45,901 nt of DNA from the NCBI RefSeq assembly GCF_003611695.1, contig NZ_RAWE01000063.1, positions 1 through 45,901 on the forward strand. The letters run 5' to 3'. Within the stretch, counting starts at the first letter, position 1, and every line of letters starts with the position of its first letter. This DNA is from Corallococcus carmarthensis (GTDB taxonomy: Bacteria > Myxococcota > Myxococcia > Myxococcales > Myxococcaceae). The notes under the pieces were generated by a model that saw nothing but the letters and a program-made list of their open reading frames with translations, was not told the DNA's origin and did no database searches. Of this stretch, positions 33,222-39,602 are shown piece after piece. The position numbers and the translations under genes are program-made.

Positions 33222-35258
33222 TCAGTGGAGCTTGTTGTAGAGCGCGTTGACGAGGCCGCCGTCGTCACCGCTCAGCTCCCAGAACATCGCGCCGCCCAGG
33301 CCCTTGGCCAGGATGTAGTCCGACTTGGCGGCGACGCTCTCCGGGTCGTCGTAGGCCACCCACACCTTCGTCGTGGGGCTGTAGACGTAGGCCTGCTTGC
33401 TCTCCGGGTGGAAGAACTTCGAGTAGCCGGAGCCTGCCTTCTCGAAGCGGGCCTTGATGTCCTTGTAGTCGAACACGCCGGTGAGGCCGGACTGGCCGTC
33501 ATCCCAGGTGCCCTGGGTGGGGACGCCGGTCTGGAACAGGCCGTTGTTCACGTTGGGCACGTTGCCCCAGCCGCGGCCGTAGAAGGGCACGCCCAGGACA
33601 ATCTTGGAGGCGGGCACGCCCAGCTGGAGCATCTTCGCGATGGAGCCGTCGGTGTAGAAGCCGTCGTTGGCGCCCGGGTCGCCCGTCACGCGGTTGAGCG
33701 CGGAGTGGAAGTTGACCGTGCTCTCGAAGGCACCGTGGTAGTCGTAGGACATCACGTTGATCCAATCGAGGATGCCGGCCAGCTTCACGGTCTCCTGCTT
33801 GTTGGCGAGCAGGTCCGGCGACGCGCCCGACGCGATGGTGAGCAGGTAGGGCTGGCCCGTCTGCGCCGTCACGGCGGCCAGCTGGGTGCGGAACTCCTGC
33901 ATGAGCAGGGTGTAGTTCACCTTGTCCGCGGGGCTGCTGATGTTGTCCGGCAGGCCGCCGCCGGTGGGGTACTCCCAGTCCACGTCGATGCCGTCGAACA
34001 CGCCCACGCCGTTGGCCGGGGTGACGCCGGGGAACTGGCCCTTCACGTACAGGTCCACGCAGGACTTCACGAACGCGGTGCGTGACGCGGCGGTGGCGGC
34101 CACCTGGGAGAAGTACTTGGACCAGGACCAGCCGCCAATGGAGATGAGCAGCTTGAGGTTCGGGTTCGTCTTCTTCAGCTCCTTGAACGCGCGGAAGTTG
34201 CCGCGCAGCGCGCCGGGGTCCCACTCACCGGGGTAGCCGAAGCCCTTGTCGATGTCCGCGAACGCGTCCCCGAGGATGCACTTGCCGTCCGGGGAGATGT
34301 TGGAGAAGGCGTAGTTGATGTGCGTGAGCTTCGACGCCGGGACGTTGGACACCTGGTAGTTGCGGCCGTAGATGCCCCACGCGGTGAAGTAGCCGACGAT
34401 CTTCTTGCCGCCCGGAGGAGGCGTGCCGGGCAGCTCCACCACGACGCTGACCGTCTTGGTGCCCACGTTGCCCGCGGCGTCGTACGCCTTCACGGTGTAC
34501 GTGTACGTGCCGTTCTGCGCGGACGTGGAGAACGCGCGCGTGAACGACGACGCGGTGGCGACGAGCGTGCCGTTCTCCAGGATTTCGATCTTCGTCACGC
34601 CCGTGTCGTCGGTGGCGCTGCCGGAGACGGTGACGGAGCCGGCGGCGGTGATGCGCGACGCGCTGGCGCTGGCGGTGACGACCGGGGCGGTGACGTCTCC
34701 GGTGGAGGGGATGGCGACGGTGACGGTGACCGTCTTCGTGCCCACGTTGCCGGCGGCGTCGTACGCCTTCACGGTGTATGTGTACGTGCCGTTCTGCCCG
34801 GAGCCGGAGAAGCTGCGCGTATAGGAAGACGCGGTGGCGACGAGCGTGCCGTTCTCCAGGATCTCGATCTTCGTCACGCCCGTGTCGTCGGTGGCGCTGC
34901 CGGAGATGGTGATGGAGCCGGCGGTGGTGACGCTCGTCCTGCTGCTGGTCGCGGTGACGACGGGCGCGGTGGTGTCGCCGCCGCCCGTCACGGGGCCCAG
35001 GTCGAGCCACAGCGACGCCACGGCCGACGGCGTCCAGTCCGCCTGCGACGTGTGGGCCTGACGGCACTGATAGACGCGGCCTTCATAGGTGACGCGCGTG
35101 CCCACGGAGTAGGCGACGCCCACGGCCCACGCGGCATCCAGCGGCGCCTTCATCACGCTGCCCGGGCCCTCGGCTTCGGGCGCGAAGGACTCCTGGCCAC
35201 AACCGGCGACGGTCAGCGCGGACGCCACCAGTCCCACAATCCACTTGCTACGACGCAT
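33222..35258 (-). CDS. Secreted GH18 chitinase lipoprotein with CBM and Ig-like repeats
   Basis: A 678-residue protein; the ATG at 35258 follows GAGGAG. The leader KWIVGLVASALTVAGC gives a lipidated Cys20. Next comes a CBM5/12-type chitin-binding module (WAVGVAYSVGTRVTYEGRVY), two near-identical Ig-like repeats of 93 residues and a GGG-containing linker. The GH18 catalytic barrel starts at KKIVGYFTAWG. The active site is FDGIDVDWEYP with the catalytic acid Glu429, and YDYHGAFE, VPFYGRGW and AMFWELSGDD complete the barrel. It degrades chitin outside the cell. It follows nagA and a sugar-phosphate gene on the same strand, so a chitin-use operon is likely. Confidence 0.95.
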   Translation of the reverse strand: MRRSKWIVGLVASALTVAGCGQESFAPEAEGPGSVMKAPLDAAWAVGVAYSVGTRVTYEGRVYQCRQAHTSQADWTPSAVASLWLDLGPVTGGGDTTAPVVTATSSRTSVTTAGSITISGSATDDTGVTKIEILENGTLVATASSYTRSFSGSGQNGTYTYTVKAYDAAGNVGTKTVTVTVAIPSTGDVTAPVVTASASASRITAAGSVTVSGSATDDTGVTKIEILENGTLVATASSFTRAFSTSAQNGTYTYTVKAYDAAGNVGTKTVSVVVELPGTPPPGGKKIVGYFTAWGIYGRNYQVSNVPASKLTHINYAFSNISPDGKCILGDAFADIDKGFGYPGEWDPGALRGNFRAFKELKKTNPNLKLLISIGGWSWSKYFSQVAATAASRTAFVKSCVDLYVKGQFPGVTPANGVGVFDGIDVDWEYPTGGGLPDNISSPADKVNYTLLMQEFRTQLAAVTAQTGQPYLLTIASGASPDLLANKQETVKLAGILDWINVMSYDYHGAFESTVNFHSALNRVTGDPGANDGFYTDGSIAKMLQLGVPASKIVLGVPFYGRGWGNVPNVNNGLFQTGVPTQGTWDDGQSGLTGVFDYKDIKARFEKAGSGYSKFFHPESKQAYVYSPTTKVWVAYDDPESVAAKSDYILAKGLGGAMFWELSGDDGGLVNALYNKLH
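34449..34929. repeat. Two 202-bp near-identical repeats inside the chitinase gene
   Basis: 34449-34650 and 34728-34929 are equal in length and differ at scattered bases only. They share long exact runs around the stretch encoding DDTGVTKIEILENGTLVA. The 279-base period corresponds to one 93-residue Ig-like domain. The low divergence suggests a recent in-frame duplication or ongoing gene conversion. Confidence 0.85.
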
Positions 35259-35315: not shown

Positions 35316-36488
35316 TTAATGGCTGGCTTTGGATTTCACCTGCCCGCCCACCCAGGTGGTGTGGACGGAAAGGTCCGGCTTCAGCAGCACGAGGTCCGCG
35401 CGGTGTCCGGGAGCGATGCGGCCGCGGTGGCCGTGCACGCCGATGAACGTGGCGGGGTGGAGCGAGGCCATGCGCAGCGCTTCCTCCAGGGGGACCCCGA
35501 GCGAGTGGATGCAGTGGCGCACCGCCGCCGTGAGGTCGATGTCCGCGCCCGCGAGCGTGCCGTCCTCCGTCTCCAGGCGGCCGTGGCGGCGAAGGATGGT
35601 GCGTCCCTGGAGGGTGAAGGACGTGACGGGCGTGCCGACCGGCGGCATGGCGTCCGTGACGAGGAACACCTTGCCCTGCGGTTTGACCTTGAGGAGCAGG
35701 CGCAGGTTGTCCGCGTGCACGTGCACGCCGTCCGCGATGACGCCGCACCACGCATCGTCTTGGAGGAGCGCGGCGACGACGGGACCGGGCTGGCGGTTCA
35801 TCATCGGAGGCATGGCGTTGAACAGGTGGGTGAAGCCTCGCACGCCTGACTGCAAGGCCTGGGTGGTGCGCTCGCTGGTGGCGGCGGTGTGGCCCGCGCT
35901 GAGCACCACGCCGGAGGTGGCGAGGCGGCGCAGGGTGGCGCCGTCCACGCACTCGGGAGCGAGAGTCATCAGCACGCGGCCACCGTGCACGGCGAAGCGG
36001 CGGGGCAGGGCGGTGAGGTAGTCGAGGTCGCGAGGGTCGGGCGTGCGGATGAATGACGGCACGTGGACGCCAGCGCGCTCGTGGCTGATGAAGGGGCCTT
36101 CCAGGTGGATGCCGAGCACGCCGCTATCAGGGCGCGAGGTGGCGGTGAGCGCGGCCTCGCAGGCTTCGCGCATGCGAACGGCGTCATCGGTGATGAAGGT
36201 GGGCAGGAGGCCGGTGGTGCCGCACTCGCGCATGGCGGAGGCGATGGCGAGCGCGGCCTCCTCGGTGGGCGTGTCGTTGAAGAGCACGCCGCCCGCGCCG
36301 TTGACCTGCACGTCCACGAAGCCGGGAGCGAGCAGCGTGTCACCGGGCAGCGTGTGCACGGTGGCGCCGGTGGGGATTGCGGAGGGAGGCACGACGGCGC
36401 GGACGGTGCCGCCTTCAAGGACGACGGCGTGGCCTTCGAGGAGCTGGTCCCCGGTGAAGATGCGGGCGCCTTGAAGGACGGTGGGCAT
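35316..36488 (-). CDS. nagA: N-acetylglucosamine-6-phosphate deacetylase
   Basis: A 390-residue amidohydrolase-fold deacetylase. Family motifs are PGFVDVQVNGAGG, GIHLEGPFIS (metal-binding Glu), LSAGHTAAT and GFTHLFNAM (His ligands), and LVTDAMPPVG (catalytic Asp). It converts GlcNAc-6-phosphate to glucosamine-6-phosphate, the step after chitin breakdown and GlcNAc phosphorylation. The ATG at 36488 overlaps the stop of a short relic frame as TGATG. The chitinase gene lies 57 bases downstream and the deaminase-like gene just upstream, so these enzymes form one pathway. Confidence 0.95.
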   Translation of the reverse strand: MPTVLQGARIFTGDQLLEGHAVVLEGGTVRAVVPPSAIPTGATVHTLPGDTLLAPGFVDVQVNGAGGVLFNDTPTEEAALAIASAMRECGTTGLLPTFITDDAVRMREACEAALTATSRPDSGVLGIHLEGPFISHERAGVHVPSFIRTPDPRDLDYLTALPRRFAVHGGRVLMTLAPECVDGATLRRLATSGVVLSAGHTAATSERTTQALQSGVRGFTHLFNAMPPMMNRQPGPVVAALLQDDAWCGVIADGVHVHADNLRLLLKVKPQGKVFLVTDAMPPVGTPVTSFTLQGRTILRRHGRLETEDGTLAGADIDLTAAVRHCIHSLGVPLEEALRMASLHPATFIGVHGHRGRIAPGHRADLVLLKPDLSVHTTWVGGQVKSKASH

Positions 36489-36616
36489 CACACGGTCTCC
36501 GTGACCTTGCGCAGGAAGACGGCACGGCCTTCAAGGCGCGGGCTTCTGGTGAAGACATGCGTGCGCTGGAGAGCGACAGGCCTGGGCATCACACGGTCTC
36601 CGTGACCTTGCGCAGG
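36482..36616. repeat. Exact 34-bp direct repeat, 101-bp period
   Basis: 36482-36515 and 36583-36616 are identical over 34 bases. On the minus strand each copy encodes the last codons of the sugar-isomerase gene, its TGA, and an overlapping ATG-CCC start. The intervening bases resemble the first 75 bases of nagA. This marks an old tandem duplication of the gene junction. Confidence 0.9.
36488..36589 (-). pseudogene. Truncated nagA 5' relic from a tandem duplication
   Basis: A 33-codon frame runs from ATG 36589 to TGA 36490-36488. Its first 26 residues parallel the NagA N-terminus: ALQRTHVFT...LEGRAVFL aligns with VLQGARIFT...LEGHAVVL. The last eight residues (LRKVTETV) are a second copy of the C-terminus of the upstream sugar-isomerase gene. 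It is therefore the remnant of a duplicated junction between the two genes, not an ordinary leader. Both ends keep TGATG coupling, so ribosomes could still pass from gene to gene through it. Confidence 0.75.
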
Positions 36617-37704
36617 TGCGCGGGCGCATCCGGGTCCAGCCCGCGTGCCGCCGCGAGCTGGTGCACCGCGAAGTAGAAGCTCTGCACCTGGCACAGCGGT
36701 GCGAGCGCCGCGGGAAGGCCCGGCAGCGTGGGCAGGGGCTGCGCGCCGGGAACGGACAGGGCGGTGTGGACGCTCGCGCCCAGCTCGACCATGCGTTGCA
36801 CGACGTCGCGAGTGCCCTGCGCGGCGTTGTCCTCCTGCCCCAGCGCGAGCACGGGGAAGCCCGGCCGCACGAGCCCGAGCGGACCGTGGAGCACCTCCGC
36901 GGTGCTGAAAGCCTCCGCGTGCAAGCGGCAGGTCTCCTTGAGCTTGAGGGCCATCTCCAGCGCGGCGCCCAGGCCGCTGCCCCGGCCGACGACATAGAGG
37001 CTGGTGGCGTCCTTGAGCTTCGCGAGCGCGGGCCACCAGTCGAGCTTGCTCGCGGCCTCCAACGCGTCCGGGAACCGCCTGGCGGCGTCGTGCAGCTCCG
37101 CGGAGTCCGACCAGTGCGCGACGAGCTGGAGGAAGGCGAGGCCGGAGAGCAGATAGGACTTGGTGGCGGCGACGCTGTGTTCGGGGCCGGCGGACAGCGG
37201 GATGCGCACGTCGCACAGCGCGGCCAGCGGCGAGGCTTCATCGTTGATGAAGCCCAGCACGACGGCGCCTCCCGCGCGGGCGGCCTCGGTCATGCGCAGG
37301 AGGTCGGGGCTCTGGCCGGACTGGGAGATGGCGATGAAGAGCGCGTCGCGCAGGTCCAGGGAGCGCGTGTTGTAGATGGACGCGACACTGGGGCCCATGG
37401 AGGCCACGGCGCGCCCCAGCGTGGTTTCAATGAGGTACTTGCCGTAGACGGCGGCATGGTCGGAGCTGCCGCGAGCGCAGGTGACGACGAAGCGGGGAGG
37501 CGTGCGGCGCAGGCGGGCACCCAGGTAGGCGAAGGTGTCGCGGCACCGTTCGAGCTGGCGGCGGGCCGCGGCCGGAGCCTGGGCGGCCTCGCGAGCGAGG
37601 GCGGGGAGAGAAGGGTTCGTCTGGGTGGGGTGCACGCGCAGGGGGATAACAGCCTCCGGGGGTGGACGGGTGGAGGAAGGCGCAGGGCGTGATGCGTCCG
37701 ACAT
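36589..37704 (-). CDS. SIS-domain glucosamine-6-phosphate deaminase/isomerase-like protein
   Basis: A 371-residue protein with two sugar-isomerase domains, like the C-terminal half of GlmS but without the glutaminase domain. SIS1 has FVVTCARGSSDHAAVYGKY and AISQSGQSPDLL; SIS2 has LYVVGRGSGLGAALEMALKL and AEAFSTAEVLHGP. The end (GLDPDAPAHLRKVTETV) is typical of the family. In the GlcNAc context it most likely deaminates glucosamine-6-phosphate to fructose-6-phosphate (NagB-II type), directly after NagA. A ketose/aldose isomerase role is the alternative. It is the first gene of the leftward chitin unit; promoters for it and the divergent DUF3817 gene share 37705-37901. Confidence 0.9.
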   Translation of the reverse strand: MSDASRPAPSSTRPPPEAVIPLRVHPTQTNPSLPALAREAAQAPAAARRQLERCRDTFAYLGARLRRTPPRFVVTCARGSSDHAAVYGKYLIETTLGRAVASMGPSVASIYNTRSLDLRDALFIAISQSGQSPDLLRMTEAARAGGAVVLGFINDEASPLAALCDVRIPLSAGPEHSVAATKSYLLSGLAFLQLVAHWSDSAELHDAARRFPDALEAASKLDWWPALAKLKDATSLYVVGRGSGLGAALEMALKLKETCRLHAEAFSTAEVLHGPLGLVRPGFPVLALGQEDNAAQGTRDVVQRMVELGASVHTALSVPGAQPLPTLPGLPAALAPLCQVQSFYFAVHQLAAARGLDPDAPAHLRKVTETV

Positions 37705-38220: not shown

Positions 38221-38700
38221 TCACCACTTGTCGACGATGATCGGCAGCACGAGCAGCAGCATTCCCCAGAGGAACGGAGGGGTGTTGAGCATGATGCCGA
38301 TGATCGCGGGCACGAAGATGCGGGCACTGAGGTGGCTCCGTTCCCGGACGAGCGCCACGACGCCACAGGCGAGGCCCAGCGGGAAGCCGATCAGCAGGAG
38401 GATCAGCCACAGTGCGTCCATGTCCGTACGTTGCGCCAGGTAGATTCCCGCTGCCGTGAGGAAGGCCATCACCAGGTACTCGCCCAGGCTGGAGCGGTTG
38501 TTGGGAAGGACGGCGCCCGTTGCCAGCAGGTGCCGATGACACGTCCGGCAATGCGCGGGCTCGCTATCCGGGGCAACGCACGCCCCGCACATGAATGCAC
38601 CGCATCGCGCGCATTCCACCGCCGCGGCCCTGGAATGCGGGGCACAGCGCGGCTGCGCGTTCGCCTCATTGCCAGGGGTTGAGTCCGCGGTGGGAGTCAT
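38221..38700 (-). CDS. B-box-like zinc-finger membrane protein
   Basis: A 159-residue protein. The N-terminus has a cluster of Cys and His: CAPHSRAAAVECARCGAFMC, then GACVAPDSEPAHCRTCHRH. This spacing resembles the B-box zinc-binding segment that precedes membrane helices in many myxobacterial proteins. Three hydrophobic segments follow (LVMAFLTAAGIYLA, ALWLILLLIGFPLGLACGVVAL, FVPAIIGIMLNTPPFLWGMLLLVLP). The zinc domain should face the cytoplasm. Function unknown; it may recruit partners to the membrane. Confidence 0.8.
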   Translation of the reverse strand: MTPTADSTPGNEANAQPRCAPHSRAAAVECARCGAFMCGACVAPDSEPAHCRTCHRHLLATGAVLPNNRSSLGEYLVMAFLTAAGIYLAQRTDMDALWLILLLIGFPLGLACGVVALVRERSHLSARIFVPAIIGIMLNTPPFLWGMLLLVLPIIVDKW

Positions 38701-38807
38701 TCGCCGTGAAGCATGGACGGCGTCTGAGAGTTTCCTTGGCGTGTTGCTTGCTCATGGCCGGGTGGGGGCGATTGACCATGAGACCTACCCGACGCAGGCT
38801 TGAGGTC

Positions 38808-39602
38808 ATGGGACGTCATACCGACAAGGTTGGAGACGCCTTCCCCCGGGCGCCTTCACAGGAAGAGTGGGAGCGGATGGGGCAGGAGGAGCGGGACCGG
38901 GTGGTGGCGGCACTGCCGGGTGAGGTGACGTACGAAGAGATGGCGATGCCCGAGGGGGACAGCCATCAGGAGCCCAAGGCACTCGCACGCGAGGCGCTCA
39001 GGGGCTACTTCAAACGCCGTGGACGCAAAGCCTACGTGGGCGCGGAATTGCCTGTGTATTACCCGGCGGAACGACGCTTCGCGCCGGACCTGTTGGTCGT
39101 GCTGGACGTCGAAAACCATCGCCGGAAGAAGTGGATGGTCAGCCACGAGGGGCACGGGCTCGACTGGGTGATGGAGATCCACGTCGGGGGCGACCGGAAG
39201 AAGGACGCCGAGTTCAACGTGAGCCGGTATGCCCGGCTGGGAATCCCCGAGTACTTCATCTTCGATGGGGGACGGCTCACGCTGGAGGGCTACCGGCTGG
39301 CGACACCGGATGCGCGTGTCTATTCGCGCATGGCGTCCCGGAACGGCCGCTACGTCTCGGAGGTGCTGGGACTCGAGCTCCAGGTCGAGGGCGAGGACGT
39401 GCGTTTCTGGGCGGGCAACGCGCCGTTGCTGGTCTCCGAAGAGTTCATTGAACGCTTGGAAGACCAGACAATGAGCCTGCAACGCCGTGCCCAAGAAGAA
39501 TCCCGGCGCGCGGACGAGGAGGCCCGGCGCGCGGACGAGGCTGAACGCCGTTTCAAGGAACTCGAGGCCGAACTCGCCCGGCTCAAGCAGTCCCGGGACT
39601 GA
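38808..39602 (+). CDS. Uma2-family (DUF820) putative endonuclease with coiled-coil tail
   Basis: A 264-residue protein from ATG 38808; ATG 38778 with a better-placed G-rich ribosome site is the alternative. The core has the restriction-endonuclease-like layout of Uma2 proteins: an N-terminal acidic segment (MPEGDSHQEPK), FAPDLLVVLDV with the active-site Asp, and DWVMEIHVGGDRKKD in place of the E-x-K strand. VSRYARLGIPEYFIFD completes it. A 50-residue Arg/Glu coiled coil (repeated RRADEEA) ends the protein. Family members are very numerous in myxobacteria and cyanobacteria, and their true substrate is unsettled. Confidence 0.87.
   Translation: MGRHTDKVGDAFPRAPSQEEWERMGQEERDRVVAALPGEVTYEEMAMPEGDSHQEPKALAREALRGYFKRRGRKAYVGAELPVYYPAERRFAPDLLVVLDVENHRRKKWMVSHEGHGLDWVMEIHVGGDRKKDAEFNVSRYARLGIPEYFIFDGGRLTLEGYRLATPDARVYSRMASRNGRYVSEVLGLELQVEGEDVRFWAGNAPLLVSEEFIERLEDQTMSLQRRAQEESRRADEEARRADEAERRFKELEAELARLKQSRD

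Follow-up and report, generated by a model that had tools for sequence, protein, structure and literature searches.

A fossil tandem duplication at the nagB-II/nagA junction of Corallococcus carmarthensis

Main

Short tandem duplications can later contract or convert through their direct repeats. In the window analyzed here, a stretch of 45,901 nucleotides from Corallococcus carmarthensis (contig NZ_RAWE01000063.1), an exact 34-bp direct repeat with a spacing of 101 bp lies on the minus strand at the junction between a nagB-II-like deaminase gene and nagA, and its two copies bracket a frame of 33 codons that begins like the first codons of nagA and whose last codons repeat the C-terminus of NagB-II. 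A preliminary description of this DNA read the frame as the fossil of a tandem duplication, in which the repeat ends had been homogenized later by conversion or by recombination with a diverged paralogue, and which may act as a translational relay between its neighbors. The locus thereby raises the questions of whether the frame is a relic or a small gene, how identical ends came to enclose a diverged body, and what the insert means for the start of nagA. Among the titles and abstract beginnings that searches of open-licence literature listed, we found no description of this junction.

Results

Each 34-bp copy, read on the minus strand, consists of the final NagB-II codons, a GGAG, the motif TGATG and the opening bases of the frame that follows (Table 1). 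The GGAG is located 8 nt ahead of the following ATG in each copy, nagA's ATG included, and stop and start codons overlap as TGATG on both sides of the relic. The repeat and its spacing, the 33-codon frame with its NagA-like head and NagB-II-like tail, and the TGATG at either end are all as the preliminary description had given them. The junction holds two adjacent direct copies, both derived from local sequence, as is characteristic of a tandem duplication, and the sequence of repeat copy 1 varies little within the genus. The upstream product matches NCBIfam model NF046059 with 331 bits (E 7.6e-99), under the model's 430-bit cut-off, and Pfam SIS with an E of 6.8e-27. For nagA, the start that fits the relatives is the ATG at 36488, and the GTG at 36491 given in the list of open reading frames is just the first possible start codon.

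Table 1 Features at and around the nagB-II/nagA junction, in window positions
Feature	Position	Strand	Basis
GH18 chitinase gene, next after nagA	33222-35258	-	Family profile searches
nagA, N-acetylglucosamine-6-phosphate deacetylase	35316-36488	-	TIGR00221, 304.6 bits (cut-off of 225.65 exceeded)
Predicted stem: inverted repeat of relic body (36525-36547) and nagA start (36458-36480)	36458-36547	-	Repeat search, folding
Repeat copy 2: relic tail, GGAG, second TGATG, opening bases of nagA	36482-36515	-	Exact 34-bp repeat
TGATG overlap, relic/nagA	36486-36490	-	Sequence
Relic frame, 33 codons and stop; nagA-like head, NagB-II C-terminus tail	36488-36589	-	Sequence, translation, alignment to nagA start
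Repeat copy 1: nagB-II end, GGAG, TGATG overlap, opening bases of relic	36583-36616	-	Exact 34-bp repeat
TGATG overlap, nagB-II/relic	36587-36591	-	Sequence
NagB-II-like SIS-domain glucosamine-6-phosphate deaminase gene; last codons form repeat copy 1	36589-37704	-	NCBIfam NF046059, Pfam SIS

Under a dinucleotide model of the window, approximately 1e-11 exact pairs of 34 bp are expected within 500 bp. The real baseline of exact repeats lies above this expectation because genomes duplicate, and exact repeats of at least 30 bp within 500 bp form three runs in the window, four in a 253,764-base sample of the window's genome and 12 in a 400,000-base sample of the congener G005, several of these 12 lying in the same arrays. 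The junction repeat alone among the 19 runs has a spacing not divisible by three; the other 18, if they lie within genes, would be expected to have spacings in multiples of three.

A separate pair of repeats was seen in the GH18 chitinase gene, where two exact runs, one of 35 bp and one of 43 bp, recur at a spacing of 279 (34549-34627 and a copy 279 bp on) and the Pfam Big_7 Ig-like model matches two stretches of the product. Perhaps one domain was recently duplicated here, or two domains underwent conversion.

We compared the junction across 16 Corallococcus genomes, the window's included. Inserts occur in three of these, with a length of 101 bp in both the window's genome and G011 and of 176 bp in G005. 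In G005 a one-base shift fuses two relic units into one 56-codon frame, which still ends with TGATG before nagA. The remaining 13 genomes are insert-free, and nagA begins directly at the nagB-II stop codon. A survey of the family gave matches in 45 of 96 genomes at an E of 1e-20 and no match in 51; excluding the unreadable junctions of G083, G084, G093 and G099, this leaves 41 readable junctions, 16 from the genus and 25 from the rest of the family. The insert is absent from all 25 of the latter, and the single-copy state is found in 38 of the 41 readable junctions. Given that the insert is carried by 3/16 genomes of the genus and 0/25 further genomes of the family, the relic is not a conserved gene. 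The comparison in relatives, which the preliminary description had proposed, hence reveals an insert state that varies within the genus and upholds the reading as a fossil tandem duplication. The motif TGATG stands at 16/16 genus junctions, and among the 25 other family junctions there are 21 with TGATG, two with TAATG and two read as GTGA overlaps; as judged from sequence comparison, the nagB-II/nagA overlap itself is old.

The body of the relic has diverged strongly from the nagA start of the window, with 49 of 72 aligned bases matching and 23 (32%) differing. The same amino acid is encoded by 12 of 24 aligned codons, and the 16 changed codons comprise 12 non-silent and four silent ones. The window and G011 relics differ from each other at 13 codons, eight altering the amino acid and five silent. 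The nagA starts, for which only counts were compared, gave seven silent versus two non-silent differences between the window and G011 and three versus three in each of the other two pairs. By these codon counts, there is no sign that the amino-acid sequence of the relic is constrained. Profile searches gave no Pfam match at E values up to 1 and no NCBIfam match up to 0.001, and the NagA N-terminal and amidohydrolase models were likewise unmatched, such models being weak, with little power, at 33 residues.

The relics of the window and G011 share seven bases that are absent from the 16 nagA heads, compared with 1.04 expected (0/20,000 draws), and therefore the relic was most likely present in their common ancestor. 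One of these seven bases is at the tail edge, and two also occur in the first G005 unit. This unit has two derived bases in common with the window relic (P 0.13) and three with the G011 relic (P 0.012); the second G005 unit, in which nine codons are missing, was left out of this comparison. Less easily reconciled with one common duplication, the heads are reversed between the two 101-bp carriers, with MPRPVALQ in the relic and MPTVLQ in nagA in the window and the opposite arrangement in G011, which needs further exchange or repeated 6-bp insertions. The genome of G003, which is close to the window and G011, is insert-free, and its nagA starts with MPTP, a start found elsewhere in the 16 genomes only in the carriers G005 and G011. 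This is what would be expected of a deletion scar if the insert was lost through its repeats.

At the tail, the window relic is identical to the functional copy at 34/34 bases. At the rate of 23/72 seen in the body, the chance of such identity is approximately 2e-6, or 7e-5 without the nine functional bases. The corresponding tail departs from the functional copy at 5/24 bases in G011 and at 7/24 in the last G005 unit, and these two tails have five derived bases in common (5/5 of those in G011 and 5/7 of those in G005; 0/200,000 draws), the tail of the first G005 unit having been left out of the tail comparison and substitution counts owing to the one-base shift. Given that these tails have diverged with five shared derived bases, the perfect copy in the window is probably secondary, and the duplicated array either predates both lineages or was transferred between them. 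The argument for common descent with G005 is carried mainly by the tail, because the first G005 unit shares few derived bases. The later homogenization of the repeat ends put forward in the preliminary description is, by inference, borne out by the changes to this tail in G011 and G005. Most likely, the second copy in the window was renewed from the first, or was replaced together with the nagA start by DNA from an insert-free strain. Alternatively, selection rather than conversion may have kept the window tail. The donor proposed earlier, a diverged paralogue, is unsupported: besides the junction itself, a DNA search of the genome returned just two matches, both weak, 42 and 34 bp in length, and we dropped this candidate, with the reservation that a strongly diverged copy could escape such a search. 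If the exchange was intermolecular, the donor would be the homologous junction of another strain.

Trees of the locus were consistent with exchange. In the rpoB-locus tree, which covers 15 of the 16 genus genomes (G013 had no rpoB match), the window and G011 are neighbors with a support of 0.67, and G005 is found elsewhere in the tree. Unlike the rpoB-locus tree, the trees of nagB-II, of nagA and of both joined (16 genomes) place the window outside a group of G001, G011 and G003, a conflict that hints at recombination at the locus. No donor stands out by sliding identity over 11 kb against nine of the 15 congeners, and for each of the nine, identity to the window dips at the junction relative to the steps on either side. 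The patchy distribution of the insert needs several losses, lateral movement or multiple origins; the several losses that a single origin requires weigh against it unless there was lateral movement.

Another part of the window, at 38301-39600 around the gene of a Uma2-type putative endonuclease (38595-39602), either cannot be aligned with G011 and G003 or shows 76-78% identity to them, whereas its identity to G009, G010 and G005 is 90-94%, a pattern opposite to that of the rpoB-locus tree. Within it, none of the nine congeners aligns over the 400-bp step 38700-38301. This is likely an exchanged or inserted stretch.

All three inserts are open and end with TGATG before nagA, preceded by GGAG or GGGAG, with frame lengths of 33 codons in the window, 31 in G011 and 56 in G005. 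In simulations with substitutions only and no indels, 59-77% of frames are expected to stay open after 20-30 substitutions without selection. Three open frames out of three are thus weak evidence, and an open frame was rejected as proof of selection.

Folding predicted a stem between the relic body and the nagA start that would enclose the GGAG and start codon of nagA. The window has a fold z of -3.61 (0/200 shuffles), and repeat folding gave -3.56 (1/200). The stem is not conserved in the other carriers (z of -1.51 in G011 and 0.79 in G005), and the window is the most extreme of 17 junctions folded, the next being the insert-free G007 (-1.91). For these two reasons the stem is possibly accidental, and its candidacy as a conserved control element was rejected given that it is strong in the window and not in G011 or G005; it is retained as a lead for the window's species alone. 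If the predicted stem is real, nagA would depend on ribosomes crossing the relic.

Discussion

We hold, with moderate confidence, that the frame stems from an old tandem duplication followed by gain and loss of units and secondary homogenization of the repeat, and that the relic probably now serves as a passive relay to nagA. The duplication step stands, because both the anatomy of the junction and the comparison with relatives show it. In this short duplication the nagB-II end, the TGATG overlap and the opening nagA codons were copied, creating a second small frame between the genes. According to the shared derived bases, the event would predate the split of the window species and G011, and probably also the split from the G005 lineage, unless the array passed between the lineages by homologous recombination. 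Units would then have been gained and lost through the repeats, so that zero, one or two are present today. In the window species, functional sequence would have overwritten the second copy, by conversion or by recombination with an insert-free junction, and the nagA-like body presumably drifted with no sign of amino-acid constraint.

For translation, a passive relay would mean that ribosomes finishing nagB-II reinitiate on the relic, translate its 33 codons and then start again on nagA. Should ribosomes that terminate at the overlapping stop codon be the main source of nagA starts, only relics that are open and end with TGATG, with GGAG in front, would be tolerated. We favor such a relay as plausible. 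As reported in PMC10666635, coupling in six gene pairs from E. coli and Haloferax was almost lost when stop and start lay approximately 20 nt apart; a non-relaying insert would therefore come at a cost if nagA relies on coupling. The relay also agrees with the three inserts that are all open and end with TGATG, although open frames are often expected by chance. A competing account, which we consider doubtful but worth keeping in view, is that the relic is pure debris, untranslated or translated without effect, and that nagA uses its own ribosome-binding site. The GGAG 8 nt before the ATG of nagA has been retained and might allow a start without translation of the relic, open frames of such length are frequent by chance at this base composition, and the relic shows no amino-acid constraint. 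The debris account fits less well with the stop/start overlap at 16/16 genus and 25/25 further family junctions, which suggests that coupling matters, and with the TGATG kept before nagA in 3/3 carriers. At the other extreme, the number and form of units (0, 1 or 2) could be a selected tuning device that lowers NagA relative to NagB-II by one reinitiation step per frame, with the predicted stem of the window also making nagA strictly relay-dependent; we regard this as improbable.

That the frame is a real small gene with a peptide under selection is, in our judgment, very unlikely. It would agree with the open frame in all three carriers, but the frame is missing at 38 of 41 readable junctions, its lengths differ among carriers, it matches no family, and most differences from nagA change the amino acid. 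The preliminary description had held that conservation of the 33-codon frame under purifying selection would make it a genuine gene; its presence at 3/41 junctions and the mostly non-silent differences point the other way, and a conserved small gene was rejected on this patchy distribution and these differences. As to origin, the junction may have been duplicated independently and recurrently, once in the lineage of the window and G011 and again in G005, without a common ancestor; this would account for the scatter of carriers on the rpoB-locus tree of 15 of the 16 genomes and for the mere two derived bases that the first G005 unit has in common with the window relic. The five derived bases common to the G011 tail and the last G005 tail (0/200,000 draws) argue against recurrence, and we give it little credence. 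The window's genome is in 530 contigs, which might suggest an assembly artefact, but a related insert occurs in G011 and, as two units, in the single-contig genome G005, making an artefact exceedingly improbable.

The preferred reading, an old duplication relaying to nagA, has partial counterparts among known systems. As described in PMC6728339 and PMC10666635, termination-reinitiation coupling resembles the relic in its TGATG overlaps and in the purine-rich GGAG before each start; however, the partners there are whole genes, whereas here a decayed duplicate is interposed and two relays would be needed. The intercistronic frame of a Salmonella Mg2+ transporter operon (PMC8092293) is likewise short and placed between genes of an operon, where translating it could unfold structure at the start that follows, but it is a studied regulatory element that promotes translation of the transporter, whereas the relic is a recognizable duplicate of its neighbors in 3/16 species.

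Other short tandem duplications share with this junction the direct-repeat borders, the states of zero, one and two units and a close relative that lacks the insert but may bear its scar. The junction case differs in that it spans a gene overlap, so that the duplicate itself is a coupled frame.

Here, we document a true fossil duplication across relatives, one end of which was probably converted or recombined; it is present in some species and absent from others, and the relic is not an established new gene. By its states in living relatives, the case shows how the junction of overlapping genes can duplicate into a small coupled frame that is perhaps later erased. Short frames within operons can originate in this way, among others, and caution is due before they are named new genes. 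Should the relay prove real, the natural series of zero, one and two units would allow the cost of each reinitiation step to be measured directly.
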